Assembly: GCF_027622875.1 (NCBI RefSeq)
Contig: NZ_JAPZVP010000011.1
Location: forward strand, 124,001 to 188,000
DNA: 64,000 nucleotides
Direction: 5' to 3'
Source: Glycomyces luteolus
Lineage (GTDB): Bacteria; Actinomycetota; Actinomycetes; Mycobacteriales; Micromonosporaceae
Below the pieces are notes generated by a model. That model was not told the origin of the DNA and did not search any database. It worked only from the letters and a program-made list of their open reading frames with translations. Made by a program: the position numbers and the translations under genes. Shown here one piece after another: positions 14,856 through 64,000 of the stretch (position 1 is its first letter; each line of letters begins with the position of its first letter).

Positions 14856-14870
14856 TCGCCGCCACAGGGC

Positions 14871-16866: not shown

Positions 16867-16894
16867 GGGGCGGGAGCCGCATGGCTCCCGCCCC
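16867..16894. terminator. Bidirectional terminator
   Basis: A perfect 12-bp stem GGGGCGGGAGCC / GGCTCCCGCCCC with a GCAT loop. It lies between the convergent pectate lyase and PLDc_N-SHOCT genes. Confidence 0.8.
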
Positions 16895-16909
16895 TCCAGC
16901 TCAAGTCCG

Positions 16910-17278: not shown

Positions 17279-17573
17279 GGCGTCCCCCTCATGCCTGGAT
17301 CGCGACCGGACCGGCCCCGACTACGACTCACTATTGCAAGATCTCGCATGACATGTCGCGAATTCGGGCGCTCTCCTCGTCGTCCACGAGCCTCCGGCGG
17401 AAAGGCGCTCAAGCTCGGGCAGGATCCCTCCGTTGAACTGGTTCCCGGGGAATTCGATCAGCACCGCGCGGCGCAGCCCCGTCAGCGGCGTTGAACGCGA
17501 GAACGCCCCGGTCAGGGCCCGATCGGTCCTAGTATTTGGGGGCCCACGCGGCATTCTTCGAAGGAGCGAGACC

Positions 17574-18869: not shown

Positions 18870-18882
18870 GCGGGCCCCGCGG

Positions 18883-19293
18883 TCACCAGTGGCGCGCGAC
18901 CTCGTAATGCTCGGCCAGGTGGATGAGGTACCGGCTGTCGTATTGGAGGAGTTCACGGTAGAGGTCGGGATCGGGCCTCTCACCGGGGCGGGTCAGGGCC
19001 AGCTGGGCGATGTAGGAGACGAGCGGGTCGCCCGGGTAGCTGACACCGTCGGTGGGGCTCTCCTCCAGCCAGGACAGCAGGGGGTGCAGCGCCGCCTGTA
19101 CCGCCTTCGTGACTCGCTCGGCGTGGTCCAGCAGCGCATTCGGCCCTATCAGTTCGGGCCAGAACTCGGTCTCGGCCTCGATGGTGAGGGCCACGGCGAG
19201 CGTCAGCTCGTACTTGAAATCGGAGTCGATCGTCCATTCCGGCAGCGGGTACCGCGCGTCGAGCGCGGCCCTCAACGACGCCTCGGCAAGCAT
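18883..19293 (-). CDS. Hypothetical protein in the Ku operon
   Basis: A 136-residue acidic, largely helical protein starting at ATG 19293, three bases after the Ku stop codon, so it is almost certainly co-translated with Ku. I recognise no domain; the sequence is rich in Trp, Tyr and Leu, with the repeated theme YELTLAVALTIEAETEFWPELI. Its placement hints at a link to end-joining, but convenience linkage is just as possible. Confidence 0.65.
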   Translation of the reverse strand: MLAEASLRAALDARYPLPEWTIDSDFKYELTLAVALTIEAETEFWPELIGPNALLDHAERVTKAVQAALHPLLSWLEESPTDGVSYPGDPLVSYIAQLALTRPGERPDPDLYRELLQYDSRYLIHLAEHYEVARHW

Positions 19294-19296
19294 CGG

Positions 19297-20226: not shown

Positions 20227-20316
20227 GACCACAGCATGGCACTGAGGGTGATGATGCGCGTGCGTTAAGTGATAATTCTTCGTTTGTCGGCGCCGCCGGT
20301 CGGGTATCTTCCGCTC

Positions 20317-20883
20317 ATGCCACGCAAGCTCGACGAATACCGCAGCAAACGGGACTTCTCGAAAACCGGCGAGCCCTCGGGCGGCCGCAAGGGCGACCGC
20401 GGCGACCGGTTCGTCATCCAGCGGCACGAGGCCTCCCGCCTGCACTACGACCTCCGCCTCGAGATCGACGGCGTGCTCGTCTCCTGGGCCGTCCCGAAGG
20501 GCCCCTCGCTCAACCCGGAGGACAAGCGCCTCGCCGTCCGCACCGAGGACCACCCCCTCGACTACGCCGAGTACGAGGGGCGCATCCCCGAAGGCGAATA
20601 CGGCGCGGGCACCATGATCGTCTGGGACGCCGGCACCTACGAGAACCTCACCGAGAAGCGCGGCAAGCCGGTCCCGATCGGCGACGCCCTCGAACACGGC
20701 CACCTCGTGGTGCGGCTCGACGGCGAGAAGCTCAACGGCGCGTTCGCGCTGTCCCGCATGGGCGAAGACCACGACTGGTTGCTCGTCAAGGTCGACGACG
20801 AAGGCGCCGACCGCCGCCGCAAACCCGCCAAGACCCAGCTCGAATCCGTGCTCAGCGGGCGCACCAACAAGGACTTGGCGTGA
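20317..20883 (+). CDS. LigD 3'-phosphoesterase domain protein
   Basis: A 188-residue stand-alone phosphoesterase module of LigD. It carries the family signature RFVIQRHEASRLHYDLRLEIDGVLVSWAVPKGPS, whose His and Asp residues bind manganese. The later landmarks are EYEGRIPEGEYGAG and WLLVK. It trims 3'-phosphate and 3'-ribonucleoside ends before ligation. In Mycobacterium this module is fused to polymerase and ligase; here it ends at 20883 and overlaps the ligase start by 4 bp (GTGA), so the parts are made separately but in balance. Confidence 0.93.
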   Translation: MPRKLDEYRSKRDFSKTGEPSGGRKGDRGDRFVIQRHEASRLHYDLRLEIDGVLVSWAVPKGPSLNPEDKRLAVRTEDHPLDYAEYEGRIPEGEYGAGTMIVWDAGTYENLTEKRGKPVPIGDALEHGHLVVRLDGEKLNGAFALSRMGEDHDWLLVKVDDEGADRRRKPAKTQLESVLSGRTNKDLA

Positions 20884-47976: not shown

Positions 47977-48062
47977 TTTCTGCTAGGTTGAGCCACGAAC
48001 ACGGGAGCGGGCGCCGGGCCAGGCGTTCGCGCCCACCGCAAGCGTCCCCTTGAGGAGTGGCG

Positions 48063-50312: not shown

Positions 50313-50313
50313 T

Positions 50314-51387
50314 TCATCGCCCAGGCGCCCACGCCGTGGAGGACCTGACGACCAGTTCGGTCTGCAGGGACGGCACCCGCGGCGGGGGCGCCTGATCGAT
50401 CCGGCTGAGCAGCTCCTGCACCGCTGAACGGCCCTGCGCGGCGAAGTCGACGCGCAGGGTCGTCAGCGGCGGAGCGAAGTACGCGGCCTCGGGGATGTCG
50501 TCCACACCCGTGACACTCACGTCCTCGGGGACGCGCAGGCCCAGCTCGCGCAAGGCGAGCATGGCCCCCAGCGCCGTCTGGTCGTTCGCGGCCACGATCG
50601 CCGTCGCGCCCAGGTCGCGGCCGCGGGCCATGACCACGTCGTAGCCGGACTTGGCCGACCAGTCCCCGTGGATCGTCCCGGCCGAGACCAGGCCCTGGTC
50701 GCCCAGCGCGCGCTCGTACGCGCGGGCGCGGTTGCGGGAGGCGGAGTAGTCGGGCGGCCCGGCGATGTGGAGGAACGCCTCGTGGCCGAGCCCGGCCAGG
50801 TAGGCGATGAGCGACGGGAAGCCGATGTCGCTCAACTCGGTGCGGTGCCCGGTGACCTCGTCGTCCTCTTCGGCGGCTATGTGCGCCGGGACCCGGAAGT
50901 CGGTCCGCTCGAACACCTCGGTCATCGCGTCGGTGGAGGCGAGCGCGAGGATGCCCGCCACGTCCTGGCTCGCGGCCAGTCGGACGGCCTCGTCGACCGC
51001 GTCGGCGTCGGTCATGTCGAACGTGATGATGTCGAGCAGGTAGCCCGCCTGCCGCGCGGCGGCGCTGGCGCCCTGCACGATCCGGCTGGGGCCGACCTGC
51101 TCGAGCTCGTGGGTGAGGGCGGCGAGGCGGTGCGGGCGGCCGCTCTTGAGCGAGCGGGCCGTGAGGTTCGGCCGGTACTGCAGCTCGGCCAGCGCCTTGG
51201 CCACCTTCTCCTGGGTCTGCGGCCGGATGCCCTTGTAGCCCTTGAGGTAGCGGCTCACGGTCTGGTGGGAGACGCCGGCGGCGCGGGCGACGTCGTAGAT
51301 CGTGGCGGGTTTCGAGGCCGCCGCTGCCGACGCCTCGCCGGGCGTCCCCGGGGAGGCCGTCGTCTCGCCGACCGCGTCCACTGCCAT
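50314..51387 (-). CDS. LacI-family transcriptional regulator
   Basis: A 357-residue repressor starting at ATG 51387 with GGAGGAG. An Ala-rich N-terminal extension of about 27 residues precedes the helix-turn-helix PATIYDVARAAGVSHQTVSRYLKG. The hinge helix NLTARSLKSGRPHRLA follows. The periplasmic-binding-like effector domain includes HIAGPPDYSASRNRARAYERAL, IVAANDQTALGAMLALRELG and VTGVDDIPEAAYFAPPLTTLR. It lies between the secreted enzyme and the importer and is divergent from the importer. The TGTTTTCGAAAACA sites at both target promoters and near its own promoter are the expected binding sites. Confidence 0.93.
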   Translation of the reverse strand: MAVDAVGETTASPGTPGEASAAAASKPATIYDVARAAGVSHQTVSRYLKGYKGIRPQTQEKVAKALAELQYRPNLTARSLKSGRPHRLAALTHELEQVGPSRIVQGASAAARQAGYLLDIITFDMTDADAVDEAVRLAASQDVAGILALASTDAMTEVFERTDFRVPAHIAAEEDDEVTGHRTELSDIGFPSLIAYLAGLGHEAFLHIAGPPDYSASRNRARAYERALGDQGLVSAGTIHGDWSAKSGYDVVMARGRDLGATAIVAANDQTALGAMLALRELGLRVPEDVSVTGVDDIPEAAYFAPPLTTLRVDFAAQGRSAVQELLSRIDQAPPPRVPSLQTELVVRSSTAWAPGR

Positions 51388-51471
51388 GCGTCTCCTCCGA
51401 AGTCCGGTGCCCTGTGCACCTGATTGTCTCTTGCCGCGCGCTTTGATGCTCAGTCTGGCTCGCGCTGTCGA

Positions 51472-51485
51472 GTTTATCGAAAACA
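51472..51485. promoter_or_regulatory. Second, degenerate LacI-type operator
   Basis: GTTTATCGAAAACA matches the perfect operator in 11 of 14 positions. Its centre is 31 bp (about three helical turns) from the perfect site at 51503-51516. The spacing would suit cooperative binding or control of both divergent promoters. Confidence 0.5.
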
Positions 51486-51502
51486 TCTTGGTAAACTCAT
51501 CT

Positions 51503-51516
51503 TGTTTTCGAAAACA
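51503..51516. promoter_or_regulatory. Perfect LacI-type operator at the divergent lacI/importer promoter
   Basis: TGTTTTCGAAAACA is a perfect 14-bp palindrome with the central CG typical of LacI-family operators. It lies 57 bp before the permease start at 51573 and 116 bp before the lacI start. Confidence 0.8.
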
Positions 51517-51572
51517 TTCTGCGTTAGCGTACACACCTGTCCCACCCGCAACAGCAACGGAGCGAACTCGCG

Positions 51573-52460
51573 ATGCCCCCTCACGCCTTCCGACCACCCC
51601 GCCGCGACTGGCGCGGATGGCAGTTCACCGGACCCTTCGCGGCGGTCTTCGTGTTCGTGTTCATCGCCCCGCTCGCCTACGCGCTGTGGCTGAGCCTCTT
51701 CCAGAACCGGCTGGTCGGCGGCAACGCGTTCGTGGGCCTCGAGAACTACCAGACCGCGCTCACCGACCCCCAGCTCTGGGACGGCTTCCTCCGCGTCCTG
51801 GTCTTCCTGCTCGTCCAAGTCCCCGTGATGCTCGTCCTCGCGCTCATCGCGGCCCTCGCGATCGACAGCGCCCGGCTCTACGCCACCGGGCTCTTCCGCC
51901 TGGTGATCTTCCTGCCCTACGCCGTCCCCGCCGTCGTCGCAGTCCTGATGTGGGGCTTCATCTACGGCGACCACTTCGGACTCGCCGCCGACGTCAACGA
52001 GCTCCTCGGCACCGACCTGCGGCCCTTCGCGCCCTCATGGGTCCTCGCCTCCCTCGGCAACATCGTCACCTGGGAGTACGTCGGCTACAACATGCTCATC
52101 TTCTACTCGGCGCTGAAGACCATCCCGTACGAGCTGTACGAGGCCGCCGAGATCGACGGCGCCCGCGGCCTCCAGGTCGTCAAGGCGATCAAACTGCCCG
52201 CCGTGCGCGGCGCGGTCGTCATCGCCACCATCTTCTCGATCATCGGCAGCTTCCAGCTCTTCAACGAGCCGAACGTCCTCAAGCCCTTGGCCAACAACGT
52301 CATCAACAGCTACTTCACGCCCAACATGTACGCCTACAACCTCAGCTTCGCGGGCCAGCAGTACAACTACTCCGCCACGATCGCCATCGTCATGGGCGTC
52401 ATCACCGCCGTGATCGCCTACGTGGTCCAGTTGCGCGGCACCCGCAGGGAGGACCGCTGA
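51573..52460 (+). CDS. Sugar ABC transporter permease (MalF-like, first subunit)
   Basis: A 295-residue permease starting at ATG 51573 with no strong ribosome box. Six helices are predicted. Family marks are FIAPLAYALWLSLFQNRL, NYQTALTDPQLWDGFLRVLVF and the EAA loop YEAAEIDGARGLQVVKAIKLPAVR. It overlaps the second permease by one base (TGATG). It is expected to import arabino-oligosaccharides released by the secreted enzyme under the same LacI control. No ATPase is encoded in the operon. Confidence 0.92.
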   Translation: MPPHAFRPPRRDWRGWQFTGPFAAVFVFVFIAPLAYALWLSLFQNRLVGGNAFVGLENYQTALTDPQLWDGFLRVLVFLLVQVPVMLVLALIAALAIDSARLYATGLFRLVIFLPYAVPAVVAVLMWGFIYGDHFGLAADVNELLGTDLRPFAPSWVLASLGNIVTWEYVGYNMLIFYSALKTIPYELYEAAEIDGARGLQVVKAIKLPAVRGAVVIATIFSIIGSFQLFNEPNVLKPLANNVINSYFTPNMYAYNLSFAGQQYNYSATIAIVMGVITAVIAYVVQLRGTRREDR

Positions 52461-53362
52461 TGTCCACCGCCCACCGCACGATCCACCCCCGCGCGCGCCG
52501 CCCGCGCCACTCGATCACCCGCCCGCGCAAGTCGCTCGCCCTCACGGTCCTGATGGGACTCTTCCTGGCCTACGCGCTCGTGCCGCTCGCCTGGCTCTTC
52601 ATCAACGCCTCGAAGACCCAAGCGGACCTCTTCAGCGGCTTCGGCCTCGCCTTCGGCGACTCGTTCGCCCTGTGGGACAACATCGCCCGCACCTTCACCT
52701 ACGACGACGGCATCTTCCTGCGCTGGCTCGGCAACACCCTCCTGTACGTGGTCGCCGGGGCCGGAGGCGCGACCCTCCTCGCGACCCTCGCCGGATACGG
52801 CCTCGCCAAGTACGCCTTCCCCGGCCGCAAGGCGTACTTCGCCGTCATCCTCGGCGCCATCGCGGTGCCCGGGACCGCCCTCGCCGTGCCCACGTTCCTC
52901 CTCTTCAGCGAACTGGAACTCACCAACACCCCGTGGGCGATCATCGTCCCGTCGCTCATCAGCCCCTTCGGGCTCTACCTGATCTGGGTCTACACCCTCG
53001 AATCGGTGCCGAAGGAACTCCTGGAGGCCGCGCGCATCGACGGCGCCGGCGAGATGCGCATCTTCTGCACCATCTCCGCGAAGCTCCTCGCCCCCGGGAT
53101 CGTCACCGTGGCCCTCTTCGCGGTCGTCGCCACCTGGAACAACTACTTCCTGCCGCTCATCATGCTCAGCGACCCGAACTGGTACCCGCTCACCGTCGGC
53201 CTCAACCAGTGGAGCGAGCAGGCCTCCGGCGTCGCCGCCGAACCGATCTTCAACCTCGTCCTGACCGGATCGCTCATCACGATCGTCCCGATCGTCGCGG
53301 TCTTCATCCTCCTGCAGCGCTTCTGGCAGTCCGGCCTCAGCGCCGGAAGCGTCAAGGGCTGA
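52460..53362 (+). CDS. Sugar ABC transporter permease (MalG-like, second subunit)
   Basis: A 300-residue permease from ATG 52460. A basic N-terminal stretch (HPRARRPRHSITRPRK) precedes TM1. The EAA loop is LEAARIDGAGEMRIFCTISAKLLAPG, and the protein ends FWQSGLSAGSVKG. The segment NWYPLTVGLNQWSEQASG is typical of the MalG-like partner. Translation is coupled to the first permease through the TGATG overlap. Confidence 0.93.
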   Translation: MSTAHRTIHPRARRPRHSITRPRKSLALTVLMGLFLAYALVPLAWLFINASKTQADLFSGFGLAFGDSFALWDNIARTFTYDDGIFLRWLGNTLLYVVAGAGGATLLATLAGYGLAKYAFPGRKAYFAVILGAIAVPGTALAVPTFLLFSELELTNTPWAIIVPSLISPFGLYLIWVYTLESVPKELLEAARIDGAGEMRIFCTISAKLLAPGIVTVALFAVVATWNNYFLPLIMLSDPNWYPLTVGLNQWSEQASGVAAEPIFNLVLTGSLITIVPIVAVFILLQRFWQSGLSAGSVKG

Positions 53363-53437
53363 CCGGACCCCTCCGGCCCGCTCGAACCACCAGGGAGTGT
53401 CCGCGCCCCCGCACAACGAAGTGAAGGAACCCGAACC

Positions 53438-54763
53438 ATGTCCACCATGAAGCGCCGCACCGTCATCGGCACCGTCCCCGCAGTCCTCGCCGCAGGCACC
53501 CTCGCCGCCTGCGGCGACGACACCGAGGCGGCCGCCACCGGCAAGCCCGAAGACCTCGACGCCGCCCTCGAAAAAGGCGGCAAGCTCACCTACTGGACCT
53601 GGACGCCCTCCGGGGAAGCCCAGGCCGCCGCCTTCACCGCCCAGTACCCGAACGTCGAGGTCGAAGTCGTCAACGCCGGCACCGCCACCGACGAGTACAC
53701 CGCCCTTCAGAACGCCGTCGCCGCCGGATCGGGCGCGCCCGACGTCGCCCAGATCGAGTACTACGCGCTCCAGCAGTTCGTGCTCTCCGAATCCCTCGTG
53801 GACCTCACCCAGTACGGCTTCACCGACCTCGAATCCCAGTACACCGCCTCGACCTGGGCCGCCGTCAACCTCGGCGGCGTCTTCGGCCTCCCGCAGGACT
53901 CCGGGCCCATGGTCATGCTCTACAACCAGGCCGTCTTCGACGAGTTCGGCCTCACCGTCCCGGCCACCTGGGACGAGTACGTCGCCGCCGCGGAAGCACT
54001 CCACACCGCCGACCCGAACCGGTTCCTCACCAACGACGCCGGCGACCCCGGCTTCGCCCAGCCGCTCATCTGGCAGGCCGGCGGCCGCCCCTACAACGTG
54101 GACGGCACGAGCGTCACCATCGACCTCCAGGACGAAGGCACCCGCCGCTGGGCCGACACGTGGAACCGGATGCTCCAGCCCGGCCTCCTCGCCCCGATCC
54201 CCACCTGGAGCGACGACTGGTGGAAGGCCCTCTCGGGCGGCACCGTCGCCAGCCTCATCATCGGCTCCTGGATGCCCGGCATCCTCGAAGGCTCCGTGCC
54301 CGAAGGCGCCGGGAACTGGCGCGTCGCACCCGTGCCCAGCTACGACGGCAGCCCCGTCACCGCCGAGAACGGCGGCAGCGCCCAATCGGTCCTCAAGCAG
54401 TCCGCGAACCCGGCCCTCGCCGCCGCCTTCCTGCGCTGGCTCAACAGCTCCCCCGAGAGCATCGCCGTGTTCCTCGAGAACGGCGGCTTCCCCTCCACCG
54501 CAGCGGAACTCGCCTCAGCGGAGTTCATCGGCAAGGCACCGGACTACTTCGGCGGCCAGAAGATCAACGAGGTCTGCGTCGCCGCCTCCTCGAACGTCGC
54601 CACCGGCTTCCAGTACCTGCCGTTCCAGGTGTACGCCAACAGCGTCTTCCCCGACACCGTCGGCACCGCCTACACCGAGCAGGGCGACCTCAACGCCGGG
54701 CTCCAGGCCTGGCAGGAATCGCTCGAGAGCTACGGCGAAGCCCAAGGCTTCCAGGTGAACTGA
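53438..54763 (+). CDS. Sugar ABC transporter substrate-binding lipoprotein
   Basis: A 441-residue family-1 extracellular binding protein from ATG 53438 with GAAGGAA. The signal peptide carries RR early and the lipobox LAACG (Cys 25). The mature part shows LTYWTWTPSGEAQAAAF, SGAPDVAQIEYYALQQF and TWDEYVAAAEALHTADP, all typical of oligosaccharide binders. It is the third gene of the LacI-controlled importer operon. The gap from the permease is 75 bp. Confidence 0.93.
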   Translation: MSTMKRRTVIGTVPAVLAAGTLAACGDDTEAAATGKPEDLDAALEKGGKLTYWTWTPSGEAQAAAFTAQYPNVEVEVVNAGTATDEYTALQNAVAAGSGAPDVAQIEYYALQQFVLSESLVDLTQYGFTDLESQYTASTWAAVNLGGVFGLPQDSGPMVMLYNQAVFDEFGLTVPATWDEYVAAAEALHTADPNRFLTNDAGDPGFAQPLIWQAGGRPYNVDGTSVTIDLQDEGTRRWADTWNRMLQPGLLAPIPTWSDDWWKALSGGTVASLIIGSWMPGILEGSVPEGAGNWRVAPVPSYDGSPVTAENGGSAQSVLKQSANPALAAAFLRWLNSSPESIAVFLENGGFPSTAAELASAEFIGKAPDYFGGQKINEVCVAASSNVATGFQYLPFQVYANSVFPDTVGTAYTEQGDLNAGLQAWQESLESYGEAQGFQVN

Positions 54764-54787
54764 CCTTCACTCGGGCACCTGGACGGC

Positions 54788-54832
54788 GGCTGCGCGGCCG
54801 CGGCGATTCGTCTCGGCCGCGACCGCGCAGCC
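54788..54832. terminator. Bidirectional terminator
   Basis: Long hairpin arms GGCTGCGCGG...CCGCGCAGCC extend inward for 17 bp with one mismatch. It lies between the convergent binding-protein and MFS genes. Confidence 0.7.
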
Positions 54833-54854
54833 CTCCAGCCGCACCAAGGCGCCT

Positions 54855-56072
54855 TCAGGCGAGCGACGGCTCCCGCTCCGGCTCGCGCACACCCCGCCAC
54901 ATGGCGAGGAACGCCACGAGACCCACGGCGGCGCACATGATCCAGACGAACGCGTGCTCAACCTGGAACAGGTAGGTGCCCACTGTCGGACCGAGCGCGT
55001 AACCGCCGATCTGGGCCGTCGTGATCGCCCCGATGTACCGGCTCCGGTGCCGGTCGCTCGGCGCAGCCAGCGCCGGATACGCCACCACCGAAGGCGCGGA
55101 GATGATCTCGCCGAACGTCCACACCAGCACCCCCGCGAAGAACACCCAGATCCCCGCGGGCAGACCGAACAGCGCCAGGCCCGCCCCGATGAAGAGGCTG
55201 CCGAACGCGATCGTGGTCCGCATCGGCAGCCGCTGCGTGTACCGCGTCACCGGCAGCTCGAACGCGATCACGATGGCGCCGTTGAGGGTCACGATCGTCC
55301 CGTACAGCCACGCCGGATGGCCCTCGCTCAGGATCTGCAGCGGCAGCACCGCCTGGTACTGCGACTCGATGAACCCGGTCAGGAACATCGCGACGATCAC
55401 CAGCGTGTACTTCGCATCCTTGAAGACGTCCCTGTAGCCCACCGCCGCGGTCGACTCGGACGGCTCCCCGTCGCGCACGTCCGGCAGCAGGAACAGCGCG
55501 ATCAGACCGAACGCGAGGTGCGTCAACGCGTTCACCACGAACATCAGCGCGAACGAATGCGTCAGCAGCCACACCCCGAGCATCGGCCCGAGCGCCGCCC
55601 CGACGTTCAGGCCCAGGCGCGCCGCCGCCGAGACCATCACCAAGCGCTTCGGCGGCGTCAGCGCGGCCATCATCGCCGCGGCGGCGGGCCGGTACATCTG
55701 CCCGAACAGGCCCGCCGCGAACGCCAGCGCCACGAGCACCCGGTAGTCCGCCGCGAAGGCCACACCGAGGACCGCGCTTCCGGAGAGGAGCATCGAGCCG
55801 ACGATCACCTGCCTCGCGCCCCACCAGGCCGTCACGGTGCCCGACGCGAAGCTGCCGACGATCGAGCCGATGCCGAACACGGTGAGCGCGAGGCCCGCGC
55901 TGGCGGGGGAGCGGCCGAGGTCGGTGAGGTAGAGGGTGAGGAAGACCGCGATGAAGGTGCCGGTGCGGCTGAGCGCGATTCCGACGAGCAGGGTGATGAC
56001 GGAGGGCGGCAGGTGCCGCAGGGTGGACCAGACGCCGTCGGCTTCAGGATCCGGCTGCTCGGTGCGGCTCAT
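54855..56072 (-). CDS. MFS transporter, probable product exporter of the carbamoyl/N-oxygenase cluster
   Basis: A 405-residue major facilitator with about 12 helices. The start ATG 56072 overlaps the preceding stop by 4 bp. The cytoplasmic loop 2-3 signature reads GSFASGTVTAWWGARQVIVG, and the central linker carries LLPDVRDGEPSESTAA. The C-terminal half repeats the fold (ELPVTRYTQRLPMRTTIAFG). It resembles drug or metabolite efflux proteins of the MdtH-like group. As last gene of the tight operon it probably exports the final product and may give self-resistance. Confidence 0.9.
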   Translation of the reverse strand: MSRTEQPDPEADGVWSTLRHLPPSVITLLVGIALSRTGTFIAVFLTLYLTDLGRSPASAGLALTVFGIGSIVGSFASGTVTAWWGARQVIVGSMLLSGSAVLGVAFAADYRVLVALAFAAGLFGQMYRPAAAAMMAALTPPKRLVMVSAAARLGLNVGAALGPMLGVWLLTHSFALMFVVNALTHLAFGLIALFLLPDVRDGEPSESTAAVGYRDVFKDAKYTLVIVAMFLTGFIESQYQAVLPLQILSEGHPAWLYGTIVTLNGAIVIAFELPVTRYTQRLPMRTTIAFGSLFIGAGLALFGLPAGIWVFFAGVLVWTFGEIISAPSVVAYPALAAPSDRHRSRYIGAITTAQIGGYALGPTVGTYLFQVEHAFVWIMCAAVGLVAFLAMWRGVREPEREPSLA

Positions 56073-57292
56073 GCGGCTCCCCGCAGCGGCGTGCACTCGA
56101 AGACGGTCTCGGCCTCGGCGCGGTCGAGGATCGTTTCGCACTCCCTTGCGGTGTCGCCCATGGCGATCAGGCAGCCGTAGCGGGCGATGTACCCGTCGGG
56201 GGGCATCAGGAGCTCGTCACCCGGGGCGGCGACGGTGACGGTCTCCAGTTCGCCCGGCCGCTCGGCCGGGAGGGCGATCTTGTCGACGACGGCGCTGCAC
56301 GGGGGGACGAGGAACCGGATGGCGGTGTGGCGGTCCCGCCGGCGGGTCAGGTCCGGTTTTTCACCGAGGGCGAGCCGGGTGCCCACGGTGCCGGAGTCGA
56401 TCCCGTTGGCCAACTGGCCGAGGTAGGGGATGAGGTCGCCGCCCAGGCGGCCGTTGATCTCCACGAGCACGGGGCCGCGGGGGGTCAGTTTGACCTCGGT
56501 GTGGGTGCTGCCGTGGCGCCAGCCGACCGCTTTGTGCGCGGCGGCGAGCATGGCGGTGAGCTCGCGGTCCCCGAGCAGCGGGTCGTCAGGATCGACGTGG
56601 TGCCCCATCTCCTCGAAGTACGGTTCGGGGCCGATGCGCTTGCGCGCCAGTGCGTACGGAAGGTATTCGCCGTCGATCACGGCGGCGTCGACGCTGATCT
56701 CGGGTCCGGTGAGGTACTGCTCCAGGAGTAGGGTGCCGTCGTTGGTCATTCCGGCCTGACGGGTGCCGCGAGCGGCCGCCATGGCCGCGGCCAGGTCCCC
56801 AAGCCGGTCCACTTTGATCACGCCCTGGCTCGCGCCGAGCGCGATGGGCTTGACCACCAGCGGGAATCCGATCGCGGCGGCCGCCGCGGTCCCGTCGTCG
56901 CCGGGGGCGAGGACGTGGAAGGCGGGCTGCGGGACACCGGCGATGGTGAGCAGCCGCCGGGTCGCGGACTTGTCCCGGACCGCGCGCACCGCTTCGGGGT
57001 CCGGGCCGGGCAGGCCGAGTTCGGCGGCCGCCGCCGAGGCGGCCTGGATAGCGGCCTCGTGCCAGCAGAACACGCCGAGGACGCGGTGCTCGGCGGCGAC
57101 GCGGCGCACCGCCTCCAGGGCCGCGTCCGGGTCGAACACGTCGCAGACGCTGTGCCCGGCTAGGTATTTCGCCTGCCAGGTCGGTTCGGCCGGGTCGAGG
57201 GCCCACAGCGGCGGGCCGTCCTCGGCGGCCGAGGCCAGCAGGTACTCGCGGAATTGCTCGTGCCCGGTCCCCATGATCAGCAGCAGGTCCAT
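56069..57292 (-). CDS. ATP-grasp enzyme 1 (carboxylate-amine/thiol ligase type)
   Basis: A 407-residue ATP-grasp protein. The N-terminal pre-grasp fold begins LLLIMGTGHEQF. The central part has RDKSATRRLLTIAGVPQPAFHVL, FPLVVKPIALGASQGVIKV (ATP-binding Lys) and LLLEQYLTGPEISVDAAVIDGEYL. The magnesium site is HTEVKLTPRGPVLVEINGRLGGD. Such enzymes join a carboxylate to an amine through an acyl phosphate. ATG 57292 is chosen for its GGAG box; ATG 57307 is in frame. It lies 20 bp after the N-oxygenase gene and overlaps the MFS gene. Confidence 0.9.
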   Translation of the reverse strand: MDLLLIMGTGHEQFREYLLASAAEDGPPLWALDPAEPTWQAKYLAGHSVCDVFDPDAALEAVRRVAAEHRVLGVFCWHEAAIQAASAAAAELGLPGPDPEAVRAVRDKSATRRLLTIAGVPQPAFHVLAPGDDGTAAAAAIGFPLVVKPIALGASQGVIKVDRLGDLAAAMAAARGTRQAGMTNDGTLLLEQYLTGPEISVDAAVIDGEYLPYALARKRIGPEPYFEEMGHHVDPDDPLLGDRELTAMLAAAHKAVGWRHGSTHTEVKLTPRGPVLVEINGRLGGDLIPYLGQLANGIDSGTVGTRLALGEKPDLTRRRDRHTAIRFLVPPCSAVVDKIALPAERPGELETVTVAAPGDELLMPPDGYIARYGCLIAMGDTARECETILDRAEAETVFECTPLRGAA

Positions 57293-57312
57293 CGGCGTCA
57301 GCTCCATTCTGG

Positions 57313-58260
57313 TCAGGGCAGGATCAGTCCTTGCTCGGTGAAGGCGTCCCGAGCGCCGGGCTGTTCGAGGACGCCCACCTCCTCGAACAGCCGCAGGGTC
57401 TTCGCCGCCGAGTGCCGGATGCCGCCCAGCACCTTCTCGCTCGAGAACGAGTCGGCGATGACGTCCTTGACCTGCGTCTCGCTCAGCCCGGTCGACAGCA
57501 GCGCGTCCCGGGCCGGGTCGGTGGCCGGGCGCAGCGACCGCAAGACCAGCGGCGGCAGGTAGTGGGCCACGCGCTGCCGCAGCGGCGGCTCGAGCTGGCT
57601 CCACAGGTGCTTGAAGAAGGCGCTGAAGAACGCGTGGTGGCGGCCCTCGTCGATCGCGTGCTCGCGCACGGTCTCGCGCATGATCGTCACGACGCTCTCG
57701 TCGGGCGGGATGTCCGAGAGGATCGAGGTCACCAGGGTCTCGAACACCACCACCTGCAGCAGTTCGACGAGCCTGCGGTGCTGCGGGAACTCCTCGCCGA
57801 CGGCGTCGAGGCCGGCGATGAACGGCCCGAAGTCGTAGTCCAGCGCGGGAATCCCCGAGCGGTTCACCAGCTGGTGCTGGACGTCGAGGCTGTACAGCGA
57901 GTGGTAGCCCTCGTCGACGACGATCTTGTACGCGTCCATGCGGGTCGCCTCGTGGAGGTGCAGGCCGCTGGAGCCGTCCGCGATCTTCTGCGACGCGCGG
58001 ACGACCACGGCGACCTCGAAGTGCATGGTGAAGCGCAGCCACTGGTAGGCGTGCTGCGCGACCAGGTACCGCCGCAGCACCGGGTCGTCCTGGTCCACGA
58101 GCGGGTGGCCGAGGTGCGGCACCAGGTGCTCGGGGAAGAACGCCTTGTGGATGTCGTCCTCGGCGTCGATCATCTTGCGGTGCTCGGACCGGACCCCGGC
58201 GCGTTCATACCAGTTGCGGAACGCCTCGATCCGCGGCATCGGCGCGTCGCCAGCGAACAC
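57313..58260 (-). CDS. AurF-like diiron N-oxygenase
   Basis: A 315-residue member of the p-aminobenzoate N-oxygenase (AurF/CmlI) family. Helices carrying diiron ligands include MHFEVAVVVRASQ, the ExxH in IVVDEGYHSLYSLDVQHQL, VVVFETLVTSIL and HAIDEGRHHAFFSAFF. GTG 58260 has GGGAG five bases upstream. Characterised members oxidise arylamines stepwise to hydroxylamine, nitroso and nitro groups (AurF on PABA, CmlI in chloramphenicol). It lies 2 bp after a carbamoyltransferase gene, and a chorismate-binding gene stands nearby. An aryl or other amine substrate derived from chorismate is the likely target. Confidence 0.88.
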   Translation of the reverse strand: MFAGDAPMPRIEAFRNWYERAGVRSEHRKMIDAEDDIHKAFFPEHLVPHLGHPLVDQDDPVLRRYLVAQHAYQWLRFTMHFEVAVVVRASQKIADGSSGLHLHEATRMDAYKIVVDEGYHSLYSLDVQHQLVNRSGIPALDYDFGPFIAGLDAVGEEFPQHRRLVELLQVVVFETLVTSILSDIPPDESVVTIMRETVREHAIDEGRHHAFFSAFFKHLWSQLEPPLRQRVAHYLPPLVLRSLRPATDPARDALLSTGLSETQVKDVIADSFSSEKVLGGIRHSAAKTLRLFEEVGVLEQPGARDAFTEQGLILP

Positions 58261-58262
58261 GG

Positions 58263-59999
58263 CTACTCCCGGGTCCTCGCGGGGTGGTCGGCGGGCAGCT
58301 CCCGGCCGGGCTTGCCCACCAGGTACCCCTCGATGTAGAGGTGGTCGATCTCGGTGCGGGCGAAGGTCCGCAGCGCGTCCTCGGGGGTCTCCACGATCGG
58401 CTCGCCGTTGTCGTTGAAGGAGGTGTTGAGGACGATCGGCACGCCGGTGAGCTCCGCGACCCGCGAGATCAGCTCGTGGTACTCGGGGTCGCGGGCGGCG
58501 GCGACGGTCTGGACGCGAGCCGTGCCGTCCACATGGGTGATCGCGGGCAGCCCCTCGCGGCGGTCCTCGCGGACCGAGGGGACCAGCAGCATGAACGGGC
58601 TCTCGCCGCGGAAGTCGAACCAGTCCTCGACCGCCTCGGCCAGTACCGAAGGCGCGTAAGGGCGGAAGGGCTCCCGGTGCTTGACCGTGTCGTTGAGGTA
58701 GTCGCGGACGCGGGGATGGCGCGGGTCGGCGAGGATCGACCGGTGTCCGAGCGCGCGCGGGCCCATCTCGGAGCCGCCGTTCACCCAGGCCACGATCCGG
58801 TGCTCGGCCAGGAGCGCGGCGACGTCCGCGATTGGGGCCCGCCGCCACTCCAGTTCACCTTCGTACGCTTGCAGCGCTTCGAGGACCCGTGCCTCCGAAT
58901 AGCGCTGTCCATATGCGGCGGTCGTCATCTGCCCGCGTCTTTCGGTGCCGCCCTCGAGGATCTGGTGCCAGCCGTAGAGCGCCGCGCCGATGGCGACGCC
59001 GGAGTCGCCCGCCGGGGCCGGAATGAAGACCTCGTCGAACGGGCCCTCGGCGAGGACGCGGTGGTTGGCGACGGAGTTGAGCATGACGCCGCCGCCGAGG
59101 CAGAGCCGGGTCTCGCCGGTGCGGCGGTGCGCCTCCGCGGCGAGGTGGAGCATCGCCTCCTCGAGCTCGTCCTGGACCTTGCGGGCCACGTCCTTGGCGA
59201 ACTTGCAGTCCCAGCGCCGTTCGGTGAGCGACTCGAACTCGGCGCCGTCGGAGGCGACGATGCCCTTCCAGATCTGCTCGAGCCCTTCCTGGGAGACGGT
59301 GATGTCGAAGCCGTCGAAGGTGAGCCACCGGCCCCAGTCCGGTCGCGGTTCGCCGTACGGCGCCAGGCCCATCGTCTTGCCGGCCTCGGGGTAGCCGCCG
59401 CATTCGAAGACGCCGAAGTCGGGCGTCCCGTACCTGGTGGTGAACCCGAGCTTGGCGGTGAAGAAGTCGTAGAACAGCCCGATGCTCATGTCGCTGTAAT
59501 CGACCGGGTACTCGGTGGACGCGACTCGGGCGAGCTCGATGCCGTCGCCCGTGAACAGGGTGTGCTTCTCGACCATCCCGTCCGTGCGGCTGCCCGCCTG
59601 GTCGACGATGAGAATCGCCGCGCTCTCGAACGGCGAGGTGTAGAACGCGGTCGCCGCGTGCGCCAGGTGATGCGAGGGGAACGGGAACGCCCGCACCTTG
59701 CTCTTGTCCTTGAGCGGCAGGTCGCGCAGGAGGCGCGGCACGGTCCGGTCGCCGAGGGGCCGGTTGCCCACGATGAGGTCGACCTCGTCGATGCCGATCC
59801 CGGCGGCGTCGAGGCAGTAGGCGATGGACTTGATCGGGATGATCTTCGTCAGCCGCTCGAAGTGGCCTTGGACGAGGAAGCCCTCGGAGTGCTTGATGCG
59901 GTCGAGCCGTTCCTCTTCGATCGCGGCGAGGACTTCGCCGTCCTTGACGATGGCGGCCGAGCGGTCGTGGCTGAGGTTGACGCCGAGGATGTAGGTCAT
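58263..59999 (-). CDS. Carbamoyltransferase 1 (NodU/CmcH/TobZ family)
   Basis: A 578-residue O-carbamoyltransferase. The N-terminal Kae1-like half begins MTYILGVNLSHDRSAAIV and has the metal site PSHHLAHAATAF and ILIVDQAGSRTD. The C-terminal YrdC-like half contains NGGSEMGPRALGHRSILADPR, DTVKHREPFRPYAPSVL, and VPIVLNTSFNDNGEPIVETPEDAL. The family makes carbamoyl-adenylate from carbamoyl phosphate and ATP, then carbamoylates a hydroxyl group. ATG 59999 is chosen for its GGAG box (an in-frame ATG lies at 60014). It is 36 bp downstream of a second, quite different copy. Confidence 0.93.
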   Translation of the reverse strand: MTYILGVNLSHDRSAAIVKDGEVLAAIEEERLDRIKHSEGFLVQGHFERLTKIIPIKSIAYCLDAAGIGIDEVDLIVGNRPLGDRTVPRLLRDLPLKDKSKVRAFPFPSHHLAHAATAFYTSPFESAAILIVDQAGSRTDGMVEKHTLFTGDGIELARVASTEYPVDYSDMSIGLFYDFFTAKLGFTTRYGTPDFGVFECGGYPEAGKTMGLAPYGEPRPDWGRWLTFDGFDITVSQEGLEQIWKGIVASDGAEFESLTERRWDCKFAKDVARKVQDELEEAMLHLAAEAHRRTGETRLCLGGGVMLNSVANHRVLAEGPFDEVFIPAPAGDSGVAIGAALYGWHQILEGGTERRGQMTTAAYGQRYSEARVLEALQAYEGELEWRRAPIADVAALLAEHRIVAWVNGGSEMGPRALGHRSILADPRHPRVRDYLNDTVKHREPFRPYAPSVLAEAVEDWFDFRGESPFMLLVPSVREDRREGLPAITHVDGTARVQTVAAARDPEYHELISRVAELTGVPIVLNTSFNDNGEPIVETPEDALRTFARTEIDHLYIEGYLVGKPGRELPADHPARTRE

Positions 60000-60035
60000 C
60001 GGAGCTCGCTCCATTCGGGTGCGGGAGTAGGGGTG

Positions 60036-61742
60036 TCAGCTGCTGCGGCGGTAGAGGGTGCCTTCGCTCCAGACGAGATCGACTCGGCCCCAGGCCAGGG
60101 CGGAGGCGACATCGGGGAAGAACCCGCTGCCCTTGAGGTTCGCGCTGGTGTTGCACAGCACCGGGATGCCGCTGACCTCGAAATAGGACTCGAGGATCCG
60201 GCGCACGGCACCGTCGCCGCGCCCGACGGTCTGCAGCCTCGCGGTGCCGTCGAGGTGGACGATCGCGGGGACGCGGGCCCGCCACTCGGGACGGACCTCG
60301 TGGTCGAACAGCATGTACGGGTCGGGGCTGCCGGGGGCGAAGACCTCGGGGGCGGCCTCCTCCAGGCAGATCGGGGCCACCGGGCGGTACGGCTCGCGGT
60401 CCTTCACGTCGTTGAGGCGGTCCTTCATCTTCGGCGAGGTGGCCGGGGCGATGATCGACCGGCCGCCGAGCGCCCGGGGCCCCAGTTCGGCCCGGCCGTC
60501 GAGGACCACGCACGCCTCGCCGGTGCGGTGCAGGATCCGCCCCAGCTCGACCGCGTCGACCTTGGCGGCGCTCCAGCCCGCCGGGATCTCGGGCGTCGGC
60601 TTGAGCGCCGGTCCGAGCCTGGCGTGCCACTCCACGGGCGCTGCGGGATTGGCCCTGCCCAGGGCGGCGGCGCCGATCGCCGATCCGGAGTCGTTGGGGA
60701 ACGGCGGCACCCACACGTCCTCGAACTCCTCGAGCGCGCGCAGCCGCGAGTTCCACTTGATGTTCAGCGCGCAGCCGCCCACGAAGCAGAGCTTCCAGCG
60801 GCCCTCGCCCTTCCATTGGCGCACTCGCGATCGCAGATGCTCAGCGAGGAGCCGCTCGAGGAAGACGTGGACGCTCGCGAGGACGTCCGCGTCCGAGGCG
60901 GCGGTCAGGCCGCGCCCGCGCAGGATCCGCTTGACCTCGCGGAAGTAGTGGTGGAGGTAGTCGAGCACCGGTTCGGAGGTGGAGCCGAACCCGCCGACGG
61001 CGTGGCGGTAGCCCACGGCCAGCGGCTCGTCGCCGGTGAAGTTCTCCTCGTACTTCTCGCGCAGGAGGCCGATCACGTCCTCTTTGGGCGATCCGAGGGC
61101 GATGTAGGCCATGAGCTTCCCGGCGACGGACAGGTCCTCGTTGACCGACGCGGGCCGCTCCTCCCAGTGGAACGGTCCGAAGTGGTGCGCGGCGACGGCG
61201 TACGTGTGCCCGGTGAGCGGGAACAGCGCGCCGCCGTTCTCCACGGTCCCGTCGGGGTCGACGTGGTAGAGGCGCGGGAAGCTGCCGCCGTCCCACACCA
61301 GCACCAGGGCCGGTTCGCGCCGCTGTCCGAAGGGACTGAGGCCGTAGGCGCTCGCCACGTGCCCGGCGACGTGGACGTGGCTGGTGTAGGGCCGGGCCCG
61401 CCCGGCGATCGGCAGGGTCCCGTCGAAGCCGGGCTCGAACAGGTTCGGCACGGCGTCGGTCTCGCGGTAGGGCGCGAGGTGGAGCAGGACGGGCTCGCCG
61501 TCCGACTCGAGGCTGACCTGGCCGTACTTGGCGCCGTCCCAGCCGTCGACGACCCACCGGTCCACCTGCTCGGGCCGGTAGCCGAATTCGGCGAGCAGCT
61601 CGGCGACGACCGCGAGGTCGGCTACCTGGCTGTGCCGGGCCCCGTTGCCGAGTTTCTCCATCTCGACGCTGAAGACCAGCCGGTCCCCGTCGATGAGCGC
61701 GACCGCGCCGTCGTGCGTGAGTTTGAGGCCGCAGACGATCAT
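60036..61742 (-). CDS. Carbamoyltransferase 2 (NodU/CmcH family, divergent)
   Basis: A 568-residue second member of the family, starting at ATG 61742 and overlapping the preceding ATP-grasp gene by 4 bp. Kae1-half marks are CGLKLTHDGAVALID, SHVHVAGHVASAYGLSPF (the His-x3-His pair is kept but HHLAHA is lost) and LVWDGGSFPRLYHV. The YrdC-half marks are GGCALNIKWNSRL, DGRAELGPRALGGRSIIAPATSP, DVKDREPYRPVAPICLEE and IPVLCNTSANLKGSGFFPDV. It is not a recent duplicate of the neighbour, so the two probably act on different positions or substrates. Confidence 0.92.
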   Translation of the reverse strand: MIVCGLKLTHDGAVALIDGDRLVFSVEMEKLGNGARHSQVADLAVVAELLAEFGYRPEQVDRWVVDGWDGAKYGQVSLESDGEPVLLHLAPYRETDAVPNLFEPGFDGTLPIAGRARPYTSHVHVAGHVASAYGLSPFGQRREPALVLVWDGGSFPRLYHVDPDGTVENGGALFPLTGHTYAVAAHHFGPFHWEERPASVNEDLSVAGKLMAYIALGSPKEDVIGLLREKYEENFTGDEPLAVGYRHAVGGFGSTSEPVLDYLHHYFREVKRILRGRGLTAASDADVLASVHVFLERLLAEHLRSRVRQWKGEGRWKLCFVGGCALNIKWNSRLRALEEFEDVWVPPFPNDSGSAIGAAALGRANPAAPVEWHARLGPALKPTPEIPAGWSAAKVDAVELGRILHRTGEACVVLDGRAELGPRALGGRSIIAPATSPKMKDRLNDVKDREPYRPVAPICLEEAAPEVFAPGSPDPYMLFDHEVRPEWRARVPAIVHLDGTARLQTVGRGDGAVRRILESYFEVSGIPVLCNTSANLKGSGFFPDVASALAWGRVDLVWSEGTLYRRSS

Positions 61743-63130
61743 GCGTCAGCCCTTCGCGATTCGTGGCCCTTGGCGAGCAGGGATTCCAGGTTGTCGAGGA
61801 CGTGGTAGGAGTCGGCGACGAGGTTGTCGGCCGAGGCGGCCCGGAGGAAGAAGATGCCGCCGTAGCCGAGCGCGCCGCTGGTGAGGTCGTACGCGGGCAT
61901 CGGGGTTCCGACCGGGATGCACAGGCCCGGAACGGCGGTCACGGTGGTGTCGCGGTCGACGACGCCCGTCCAGTCCACGAGGGACTCGTCCCAGACGGGG
62001 TGGTCGTTCCACGGCCGACCGGCCGAGTCGGTGGCGATGAGCGACAGCGATCCGGCCGCCCCCTCGGCATCGCGGTCGGTGAGCATCCGCTCGGGCGGGT
62101 CGATCGGCTCGCCCAGGAGCGCGTCGGTGAGCATCCCGACGATGTCGACGCCGAAGCAGTGCTCGATCTCGGCGGCGACCATGACGCCGCCGATCCGGGC
62201 GGCGGACTCGAGGACGGAGAGCCCGCCGTCGGGGCAGAGCTTGAGTTCGGTGTGGGTGCCGCAGTAGTCGAGTCCGAGGGCGTCCACGGCGGCGCGGGCG
62301 ACGCGCTCGATCTCGCGTTGGGCCGCTTCGGGAAGCGCGCAGGGGGCGAGGTTGCTCAGCTCGGTGAACGGCGGGATGGTCGGGATGCGGGAGGTGATGC
62401 AGATCGGGTGGTAGACGCCGCCCGCGACGACGCCCTCGACGCTCAGGTAGTCGCCGTAGCCGCTGTCGGCGTCCCACCAGGACTCGATGCTCGACTGGAT
62501 GATCTCCTCGACGAGGAAGTCGGCGTCGGCGTCGGCGACCTGCAGTTCGGTGTAGCCGCGCTCGCGGGCCTGGATCATCGCCTCGTTCGCCTTGGCCCAA
62601 GCGGGTTCGACGTCCGCTTCGGTCTCGAGCACGAGCTGCCCGATGGCCCCCGCTCCCCAGGCGGACTTGAGGAGCATCGGGGCGGTCAGCTCGCGGAAGG
62701 CTCGGCGCAGATCGTCCGCGGAGTCGACTGGCCGGAACCGCGGCACTGGCACCCCGGCGTCCTCCCAGACCTGCCGCATCCGTCGCTTGTCGCGGGAGTT
62801 GACCGCATCGGGTCCGGCGCCGCGCAGTCCGAGTCGCTCGGCCGCTTCGGCGACGGCGATGACCGCGTACTCCGAGAGGGTCAGGATCGCGTCGGCGCCG
62901 ATCCGCCCGGCCTCGCCGACGATCAGGTCGACCAGCTCGTCGCCGGTGCGCTCGAGGTCCCAATGCGGGGTCACCGAGGTGCAGTGCGGACTCCACAGTG
63001 GTTCAGTGTGCTGGGGTGGCGGCTTGAGCGCGAGTACGTGCAATTCGGCTTTGGCCGCGATTTTCGGAAAGGCGTACTCGAGTGGTGCTCCGCCTCGCGA
63101 ATAGACGAAGAGCACCTTCTTTTCAGGCAC
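61739..63130 (-). CDS. ATP-grasp enzyme 2
   Basis: A 463-residue ATP-grasp ligase starting at GTG 63130 (AGGGAGAC upstream). The pre-grasp fold starts VPEKKVLFVYSRGGAPLEYA and includes ILTLSEYAVIAVAEAAERLGL. ATP-binding landmarks are NSRDKRRMRQVWEDAGVPVPRF, APMLLKSAWGAGAIGQLVLE and ELQVADADADFLVEEII. The metal site is YCGTHTELKLCPDGGLSVLESAARIGG. The C-terminal lid includes a long domain with GVVDRDTTVTAVPGL. It is similar to biosynthetic L-amino-acid ligases. It is first in the six-gene operon, so its product level sets the start of the pathway proteins. Confidence 0.9.
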   Translation of the reverse strand: MPEKKVLFVYSRGGAPLEYAFPKIAAKAELHVLALKPPPQHTEPLWSPHCTSVTPHWDLERTGDELVDLIVGEAGRIGADAILTLSEYAVIAVAEAAERLGLRGAGPDAVNSRDKRRMRQVWEDAGVPVPRFRPVDSADDLRRAFRELTAPMLLKSAWGAGAIGQLVLETEADVEPAWAKANEAMIQARERGYTELQVADADADFLVEEIIQSSIESWWDADSGYGDYLSVEGVVAGGVYHPICITSRIPTIPPFTELSNLAPCALPEAAQREIERVARAAVDALGLDYCGTHTELKLCPDGGLSVLESAARIGGVMVAAEIEHCFGVDIVGMLTDALLGEPIDPPERMLTDRDAEGAAGSLSLIATDSAGRPWNDHPVWDESLVDWTGVVDRDTTVTAVPGLCIPVGTPMPAYDLTSGALGYGGIFFLRAASADNLVADSYHVLDNLESLLAKGHESRRADA

Positions 63131-63653
63131 AGTCGTCTCCCTACTGTCAAATCGAGAAGAACGCGGTGAACAGCGATCCGGCCCGCATTCGAGGCGGATC
63201 GGCCATGGGGGTATCTGGTTCCTGTAGGTGACACGACGTGTCAGGCCGGTGACGATCGTATGAGACGCGGGGGCCACTGTCAAGCACACCCTGGAATGCG
63301 CTTCCACAGTGGTTGCTGTGCACGAGAGGCGGTTACTGTGCCGCAGCGATTCCATTGTGACCGGAGTGAGTGCACATTGCGGCGCCGGCATTGTGCGTTC
63401 CTACCAGAGTGTCTCGATGACCAGGACTATGGCTACCGTCACATTCGGCGGTCCGCAGTGGATCTCGCCGCCGCTCAGCGCCGTGATCGTCACTCTGCGG
63501 TACCGCCCAGCGGTCGGCGACTTTCGTCCCAGCAACCTCAATGGATGCGTTGGATACCAATCAGCCCAATGGCATGGGAGCGCTGACCAATGGAATTCGC
63601 CGCCCGGTGCTAATCTGTCCGCGATCCCGACCGCCGGTGAAAGGGCCACTTTG
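63131..63653. other. 523-bp divergent control region of the biosynthetic cluster
   Basis: No convincing gene is present. A perfect inverted repeat TGACAC-GAC-GTGTCA lies at 63229-63243, about 100 bp before the ATP-grasp start. A possible -10 (TAATCT, 63611-63616) precedes the rightward gene. The GC content is lower than the flanks, as expected for a promoter region serving both directions. Confidence 0.5.
63229..63243. promoter_or_regulatory. Candidate operator of the biosynthetic operon
   Basis: A perfect inverted repeat with 6-bp arms TGACAC / GTGTCA and a GAC spacer in the divergent promoter region. No regulator gene is visible between the left edge of the cluster and the window end. Confidence 0.45.
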
Positions 63654-64000
63654 ATGAGCGCAGGCGCCGACCGACCACTGATCGAATTGCGGCACTTCGC
63701 CTGCAAAGCCGAAGACCCCTTCGCGTCGTTCATTCGACTGCGTGCCGCCGAAGGCGAGCAGAACGTCTTCCTCTTCGAATCCCTCGCCGGTCCCGCGGCC
63801 GACAAGACCCGCGCCATGATCGGCGCGACCCCGCTGCTCGACGTCGTCGTGCGCGACGGCGTCCTCGAATTCGACGGCCAGGAGCCGTGGCTCGCCTGGG
63901 CGGTGCGGCGGATGGCCGGCTTCGGCGGGGCGTACGCCGTGGACGGGCGGTTCTTCCGCCTCACCGAGCGCACCGAGCTGTGGGAGGCGCTGCGGCACTT
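63654..64000 (+). CDS. Chorismate-binding enzyme, component I (PabB/TrpE-like), 5' part only
   Basis: The first 115 codons of a gene running off the window, from ATG 63654 with GAAAGG 10 nt upstream. The visible part is the N-terminal domain of anthranilate / 4-amino-4-deoxychorismate synthase component I: LIELRHFACKAEDPFASFIRL, then VFLFESLAGPAADKTRAMIGATPLLDV and the VVRDGVLEFDG strand. The catalytic chorismate domain lies outside. Because an AurF-type N-oxygenase is encoded next door, 4-amino-4-deoxychorismate (to PABA or p-aminophenylalanine) or anthranilate are the candidate products. The distinction needs the missing sequence. Confidence 0.75.
   Translation, partial: MSAGADRPLIELRHFACKAEDPFASFIRLRAAEGEQNVFLFESLAGPAADKTRAMIGATPLLDVVVRDGVLEFDGQEPWLAWAVRRMAGFGGAYAVDGRFFRLTERTELWEALRH

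Follow-up and report, generated by a model that had tools for sequence, protein, structure and literature searches.

The locus considered here raises the question of whether two divergent strings of biosynthetic genes in the soil bacterium Glycomyces luteolus build one natural product or two, and what kind of compound that would be. They lie at the right end of a 64,000-nucleotide stretch of DNA (NZ_JAPZVP010000011.1, positions 124,001 to 188,000; G000:C3:124001-188000 of a 5.74-Mb genome), which as a whole is called the window below. The cluster comprises 14 genes over 17.5 kb, from window position 54855 to window-equivalent position ~72392, arranged in two divergent arms, and the window truncates it, since the right-arm genes go on along the same contig, which runs 14.5 kb past the window's right edge (flank L003). 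Our preferred reading, held at a probability of about 0.45, is a single modular pathway in which both arms would contribute to a glycosylated aminobenzoate, probably bearing amino-acid and carbamoyl groups. The cluster is real, compact, conserved and, so far as the literature was searched, seemingly undescribed: no published description of this gene set was found among the full-text literature matches listed, as judged by titles and abstract starts, in agreement with the initial annotation, which knew of no such pathway.

The genes and the predicted regulatory elements between the arms are as follows, with window-equivalent (w.e.) coordinates beyond position 64000:

54855-56072, minus strand: MFS exporter (MFS1), the final left-arm gene, overlapping the next gene by 4 bp (Pfam MFS_1, 9.2e-45)
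56069-57292, minus strand: ATP-grasp ligase 2 (ATPg2), LAL type (ATP-grasp_4, 1.2e-16; LAL_C2, 1.1e-5; PDB 3vot, 1.7e-22)
57313-58260, minus strand: AurF-type diiron N-oxygenase (predicted), GTG start (Pfam AurF, 6.2e-23)
58263-59999, minus strand: carbamoyltransferase A (CarbA), TobZ/NovN/GdmN type (Carbam_trans_C, 5e-69; Carbam_trans_N, 5e-40)
60036-61742, minus strand: carbamoyltransferase B (CarbB), NodU-like (Carbam_trans_N and Carbam_trans_C; NCBIfam NodU, 1.6e-200)
61739-63130, minus strand: ATP-grasp ligase 1 (ATPg1), BacD-like, the first left-arm gene, GTG start (Pfam ATP-grasp, 2e-7; BacD, 2.7e-51)
63255-63283, minus strand: predicted left-arm promoter, TTGACA-17-TACGAT (two occurrences in the window, 0.04 being expected)
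63575-63588, plus strand: conserved operator-like box TGGGAGCG, ahead of the right arm
63608-63616, plus strand: extended -10-like element TGCTAATCT (TGnTAnnCT), candidate right-arm promoter
63654 to w.e. 65201 (63654-64000 in the window), plus strand: SgcD-type chorismate enzyme (Chorismate_bind, 4e-83)
w.e. 65198-65791, plus strand: amidotransferase (59% identity to the amidotransferase of the C-1027 producer)
w.e. 65788-66411 (L003:4788-5411), plus strand: SgcG-like flavoprotein (FMN_red, 4e-24)
w.e. 66416-67651, plus strand: second exporter, MFS2 (MFS_1, 2.5e-16)
w.e. 67648-68856, plus strand: GT28/GT1-type glycosyltransferase (glycosyltransferase family matches)
w.e. 68849-69958, plus strand: protein X, probable glycosyltransferase (no Pfam match; weak GT-A resemblance)
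w.e. 69955-71376, plus strand: P450 (Pfam P450, 4e-64)
w.e. 71367-72392, plus strand: GT2 glycosyltransferase (glycosyltransferase family match)

With recomputed starts, the six minus-strand genes are separated by a 4-bp overlap, 20, 2 and 36 bp, and a second 4-bp overlap, which agrees with the tight packing given in the initial annotation (gaps of at most 36 bp, two 4-bp overlaps), and Pfam supports the families assigned. The family matches also agree with its broader proposal of a small chorismate-fed biosynthetic cluster with an AurF fold, carbamoyltransferases, ATP-grasp ligases and exporters. Its extent, 54855-64000, holds as the location of the cluster but not as its limit, the window edge cutting it short. 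The right arm consists of eight plus-strand genes (overlaps of 4 to 10 bp plus one 4-bp gap) in the order chorismate enzyme, amidotransferase, SgcG-like flavoprotein, MFS2, GT28/GT1, X, P450 and GT2. The chorismate gene opens an eight-gene biosynthetic string rather than belonging to an ordinary trp or folate operon, the finding that would have refuted the initial annotation by its own criterion. The SgcG-like partner, the P450, the two or three glycosyltransferases and MFS2 all come as additions to the genes already noted. The fragment of the chorismate gene inside the window gives no Pfam match, the Chorismate_bind score coming from the full contig gene. No domains of polyketide synthases (PKS) or non-ribosomal peptide synthetases (NRPS) occur in the Pfam results of the cluster genes, so that their reported absence now extends to the right arm. 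Protein X is named only as a probable glycosyltransferase because its model is poor (pLDDT 52) and its structure matches, mostly GT-A enzymes, include none at E <= 0.001.

The entry point into the pathway is indicated by the first three right-arm genes. A search of plasmid records with the flavoprotein led to SgcG of the C-1027 producer (48% across the matched stretch), and comparison with that plasmid (NZ_CP013739.1) gave identities of 44% between the chorismate enzyme and SgcD, 59% for the amidotransferase and 46% between the flavoprotein and SgcG. The flavoprotein is an FMN_red-type protein of ~207 amino acids adjoining the SgcD homologue. The cluster enzyme has the PIAGT and YSHVLHLVS motifs in common with SgcD, while PIKGT occurs in PabB-like third chorismate enzymes of two genomes of the same family (G940 and G959); the exchange of A for K is presumably of catalytic meaning. 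A separate amidotransferase gene accompanies the PIAGT-bearing enzyme, and no class IV aminotransferase (PabC-like) is found in the family results of the cluster genes. The gene described earlier as divergent and PabB/TrpE-like is thus a divergent chorismate enzyme, but not a PabB-like one. In the available part of PMC10098953, SgcD makes 2-amino-2-deoxyisochorismate (ADIC) without pyruvate cleavage and SgcG converts ADIC to 3-O-enolpyruvoylanthranilate. Given the identities of all three proteins to SgcD, the amidotransferase and SgcG, the predicted product of the trio is 3-O-enolpyruvoylanthranilate via ADIC, and not p-aminobenzoate (PABA).

The oxygenase of the left arm is by its sequence and fold predicted to be an AurF-type diiron enzyme that oxidizes the nitrogen of an amine. 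In a profile search its top structures were AurF and CmlI (AurF 3chh, 9.3e-22), and its AlphaFold model (pLDDT 91.3) gave nine fold matches at E <= 0.001, all of them AurF or CmlI. Seven ligand residues (E82, E117, H120, E174, H201, E205 and H208) are invariant in 28/28 aligned rows, an alignment from which L056 is omitted for its in-frame stop, L038 and L039 as partial matches, and L064 as well. According to the available part of PMC13061610, a seventh histidine is the mark of diiron N-oxygenases; its equivalent in the cluster enzyme is H201, and the six diiron metal ligands are also kept. The fold and all seven ligand residues are therefore common to AurF, CmlI and the cluster oxygenase, which differs from both in its low identity (15-18% in fold-search alignments) and in belonging to a cluster without a PABA route. 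Across genomes, a single-sequence search found the oxygenase at E <= 1e-15 in 1/396 phylum genomes, namely G000 itself, and profile searches in 12/394 class genomes (E <= 1e-6, G000 included) and 14/397 order genomes (E <= 1e-15, G000 and G010 included).

The remaining left-arm enzymes point to carbamoylation and ligation. The solved structures nearest to CarbA are the novobiocin carbamoyltransferase (7e-77), TobZ (5e-71) and also GdmN. CarbB scores 667.6 bits against NCBIfam NodU, under the family cut-off of 1000, and is 50-52% identical to its best 15 of 57 plasmid records, mostly annotated as rhizobial NodU. Both carbamoyltransferases contain the two Carbam_trans domains and intact H-x3-H, GGxxLN, DSG and GPRALG motifs, which we take to be functionally important. 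NodU carbamoylates a sugar hydroxyl, and from this likeness a sugar hydroxyl is a plausible target of CarbB, which would fit the presence of right-arm glycosyltransferases. Among PDB structures, ATPg1 is most similar to the alanine-anticapsin ligase BacD and ATPg2 to the L-amino acid ligase 3vot. Unlike the rhizobial NodU and bacilysin systems, however, the cluster contains no further recognized Nod-factor or anticapsin gene. The FVG (gvg) clusters were considered as another carbamoyltransferase parallel and set aside, the words ATP-grasp and oxygenase being absent from the available part of the text (PMC8064604).

The distribution of the arms within the genus provides further evidence on whether they belong together. 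Besides G. luteolus, the AurF gene is present in Glycomyces sp. YM15, G. paridis and G. algeriensis, that is in 4/22 Glycomyces genomes, all within the seven (7/22) that carry the SgcG-like gene. The fourteen genes are collinear in G000, G015 and G002 (84.6-97.5% identity for the latter two), and MFS1 also occurs in all three other left-arm genomes (G015, G002 and G010). A six-gene core, from the chorismate enzyme to X, is present in 7/7 right arms, and P450 and GT2 in five of the seven in the stretches read; the alignment of protein X omits G002, whose gene spans two loci. The predicted left-arm promoter is kept in the four left-arm genomes and also in G009, where the left arm is missing at that place, and is absent upstream of three other right arms (G010 contig 37, G017 and G019). 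The upstream region of G009 matches bases 78-498 of the 523-bp intergenic region (69%, E 2e-41), and no remains of a left arm occur within the 20 kb examined. At the G010 locus, where the left arm has no adjoining right arm, the left-side junction retains homology (E 2e-8), and a counterpart of TGGGAGCG is placed 446 bases away from where the left arm starts (444 in G000); a further copy of the octamer is present in this region, at 140. The G009 upstream match with its left-arm promoter and the junction remnants of G010 point to ancestral adjacency of the two arms as most likely, followed by separate losses, which favors their cooperation, short of proving it. On its own terms, G009 (L025 7300-7856) represents an orphan divergent promoter whose left arm is gone. 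A second home of the right arm lies beside kdp genes (names read from sequence) in G010 (L026) and G019 (L028), where the copies are more diverged (61-83% identity).

With gene content, intact motifs and synteny shown and ancestral adjacency most likely, the reactions and the product can be predicted as follows. The SgcD-type synthase and the amidotransferase would aminate chorismate at C2 to give ADIC, which the SgcG-type flavoprotein, judging from homology, would aromatize to 3-O-enolpyruvoylanthranilate. Since the benzoxazolinate ligase was not found, the aminobenzoate would be glycosylated rather than ring-closed, putatively by GT28/GT1, the probable GT-A enzyme X and GT2 (the last in 5/7 genomes), and the P450 may oxidize it. 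The two ATP-grasp ligases could join amino acids to the aminobenzoate or to each other, the AurF-type enzyme would oxidize a nitrogen, and the two carbamoyltransferases would carbamoylate hydroxyls, in the case of CarbB plausibly on a sugar; the MFS proteins would export the product.

A single pathway is judged somewhat likelier than two independent neighbors, which is nevertheless a serious contender. In that case the right arm would make an exported glycosylated 3-hydroxyanthranilate-type compound and the left arm a separate small, N-oxidized and carbamoylated di- or tripeptide of the Trojan-horse type, built from primary-metabolism amino acids and with its own exporter. Several observations weigh against a single pathway in this way. 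Both arms come with a predicted promoter and an MFS gene of their own; the right arms of G009, G017 and G019 occur in genomes without an AurF match; and in G010 the left arm stands alone, the right arm being on another contig and the right-side junction match alone not significant (E 0.18). Moreover, among 12 AurF neighborhoods outside Glycomyces (L047-L054 and L069-L072, 11 to 20 kb each, gene names being our own reading of the sequences), one in a genome of the same family (G1086, L070) combines AurF (44%) with CarbA (67%) and a BacD-like ligase (46%) and has an MFS gene after its CarbA. This set, the nearest relative of the AurF, CarbA and ATPg1 combination, adjoins SbnA-like (diaminopropionate-type), OTC-like and amino-acid permease genes, neighbors that suggest an amino-acid substrate for the left arm, and its 20 kb contain no SgcD or SgcG match, just an amidotransferase-like one (39%). 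A Streptomyces sp. NBC_00998 plasmid (L068) pairs CarbA (60%) with an ATP-grasp gene and has no AurF match. In favor of a single pathway, an ATPg2-like/MFS1-like pair stands immediately ahead of a chorismate enzyme-amidotransferase-SgcG trio in G959 of the same family (L096) and recalls the Glycomyces cluster, but this linkage is weak, because such pairs are common: an MFS1-like neighbor occurs at 7/19 ATPg2-like loci inspected (G959 included), and an ATPg2-like gene in 25/249 order genomes at E <= 1e-40 (G000 included). G959 also differs in having an AMP-ligase, and the 20 kb read there gave no match to AurF or to a carbamoyltransferase. Against independence stand the ancestral divergent adjacency around one common 523-bp region and the constant company of AurF and the right arm in Glycomyces genomes (4/4), a nesting whose chance is 35/7315 (~0.005 by hand arithmetic, a value to be read with caution as it is not corrected for kinship). 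In addition, the left arm has no gene for making a special amino acid. G1086 differs from the Glycomyces cluster in its SbnA-like and OTC-like genes, and its CarbA-like gene is the only match there to CarbB (34%). The four left-arm Glycomyces yield just two SbnA-like matches (34-35%); these are shared throughout the genus and resemble housekeeping cysteine-synthase genes. Diaminopropionate, suggested as a left-arm substrate by L047 and L070, was for that reason not adopted, and quisqualate-like or O-carbamoylserine products have no gene evidence, the literature matches listed for quisqualate biosynthesis being two reviews on sponges.

The aromatic unit could also have another fate. A benzoxazolinate pathway as in C-1027 or the benzobactins would account for the adjoining SgcD, amidotransferase and SgcG homologues, and a three-gene cassette of ADIC synthase, SgcG and acyl-AMP ligase has been proposed for it in the available part of PMC10098953. 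The cassette is incomplete in the cluster, however: at E <= 1e-10 no homologue of the AMP-ligase cyclase turned up in any of the seven right-arm Glycomyces genomes (7/7), whereas the independent control, G959, matched at 52% (nine genomes or records were searched, the ninth, the C-1027 plasmid, having supplied the query and matched itself). Further differences from the C-1027 branch are the direct continuation of the Glycomyces trio into glycosyltransferases and a P450 in one gene string, and the cysteine motif of the SgcG-like protein, CxCx2Cx6C in 7/7 Glycomyces against Cx2Cx2Cx6C in 15/15 others, with all four cysteines kept and one residue fewer in the first interval than SgcG has. This change, which coincides with the missing cyclase gene across the seven Glycomyces, also tells against our own prediction, since the reaction of the SgcG-like protein may differ; so does the open fork at the sister group of the cluster enzyme in trees of 19 and 15 chorismate enzymes, in the smaller of which TrpE of four same-family genomes forms its own clade. 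On account of the ligase, the tree and the cysteine motif, the trio is classed as SgcD/SgcG-like and the pathway is not classed as benzoxazolinate, which we regard as improbable. Still less probable is a bacterial counterpart of the plant benzoxazinoids, in which the AurF enzyme would N-hydroxylate the anthranilate nitrogen of 3-O-enolpyruvoylanthranilate, an ATP-grasp ligase would close the ring in place of the AMP-ligase, and the cyclic N-hydroxy-benzoxazinone would be both stored and exported as a carbamoylated glycoside. The proposal of the initial annotation, PABA or p-aminophenylalanine from the chorismate gene and its N-oxidation to a nitro-aromatic, draws on the fact that AurF and CmlI, the nearest structures, oxidize such aryl amines (PMC13061610, available part), yet it is the least probable of all in view of the PIAGT rather than PIKGT motif, the SgcD-like identity, the SgcG partner and the lack of a PabC-like gene in the family results.

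A single pathway of this kind would represent an outlet of the ADIC/3-O-enolpyruvoylanthranilate branch distinct from benzoxazolinate, phenazine and pyrrolobenzodiazepine, one in which glycosylation goes together with N-oxidation, carbamoylation and ATP-grasp ligation and neither PKS nor NRPS takes part. Sister species carry nested, partly dismantled forms of the cluster (the core alone, the core with P450 and GT2, and both with the left arm). These forms amount to deletion strains made by nature, whose metabolites, when compared, could reveal the chemistry of each arm. Should the arms be independent, the left arm would still combine AurF, carbamoyltransferases and ligases in an uncharacterized unit, one that has a relative next to diaminopropionate-type genes. 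Overall, the cluster is a lead toward a new natural product that can be put to the test.

Additional observations were made at the related loci. The AurF homologue of G1086 (L056, G1086:C1:2314032-2314949) has one in-frame TGA and may thus be broken or mis-sequenced. The closest AurF outside Glycomyces (53%) is that of G940 (L069), which has ATP-grasp matches and no carbamoyltransferase match; on its contig C299, 44 kb separate AurF from an SgcG homologue. In G735 (L047), SbnA-like, SbnB-like and OTC-like genes flank AurF, and CarbA is absent. L047 (6757-12740) and L070 (7609-17566) appear as small clusters of diaminopropionate-type, AurF-type, OTC-type and MFS genes. The L068 stretch (8205-20439) also contains a chorismate-binding enzyme, an amino-acid permease and a second, weak match of ligase-like character. 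At L096, L097, L094 and L098 (G959, G847, G940 and G1035), sets of the SgcD/SgcG type have ATP-grasp-like and MFS-like genes as neighbors, with AMP-ligase-like genes, by our own reading, in the first three genomes; they may be sources of ligase-based benzoxazolinate conjugates.

Around the cluster itself, GT2 is followed by an EF-hand protein and then by other genes without evident link to it, and ten unknown bases (L003:14880-14889) mark an assembly gap to its right. A second match to the window end, 41 bp long, falls inside the glycosyltransferase gene and was taken as chance. An Rfam scan of 48000-64000 at gathering scores gave no matches. In the intergenic region, TGGGAGCG lies ~73-89 bp upstream of the chorismate gene in 7/7 right arms (the starts in G019 and G017 being estimated, as no start codon was seen there), and TGnTAnnCT follows 32-33 bases past the box start in all seven by hand count, TGCTAATCT being a putative -10 element. 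The palindrome TGGGAGCGCTCCCA was not above chance in the window, and a CebR-type reading of TGGGAGCGCT, using what we take to be the CebR consensus, gave three window matches against 7.8 expected, so that the sequence was retained just as a conserved box. The conserved right-arm box resembles a LacI-type operator, and the left neighbors of the cluster (window 50314-54763) are a LacI-type regulator gene and sugar ABC transporter genes, as named from their sequences.

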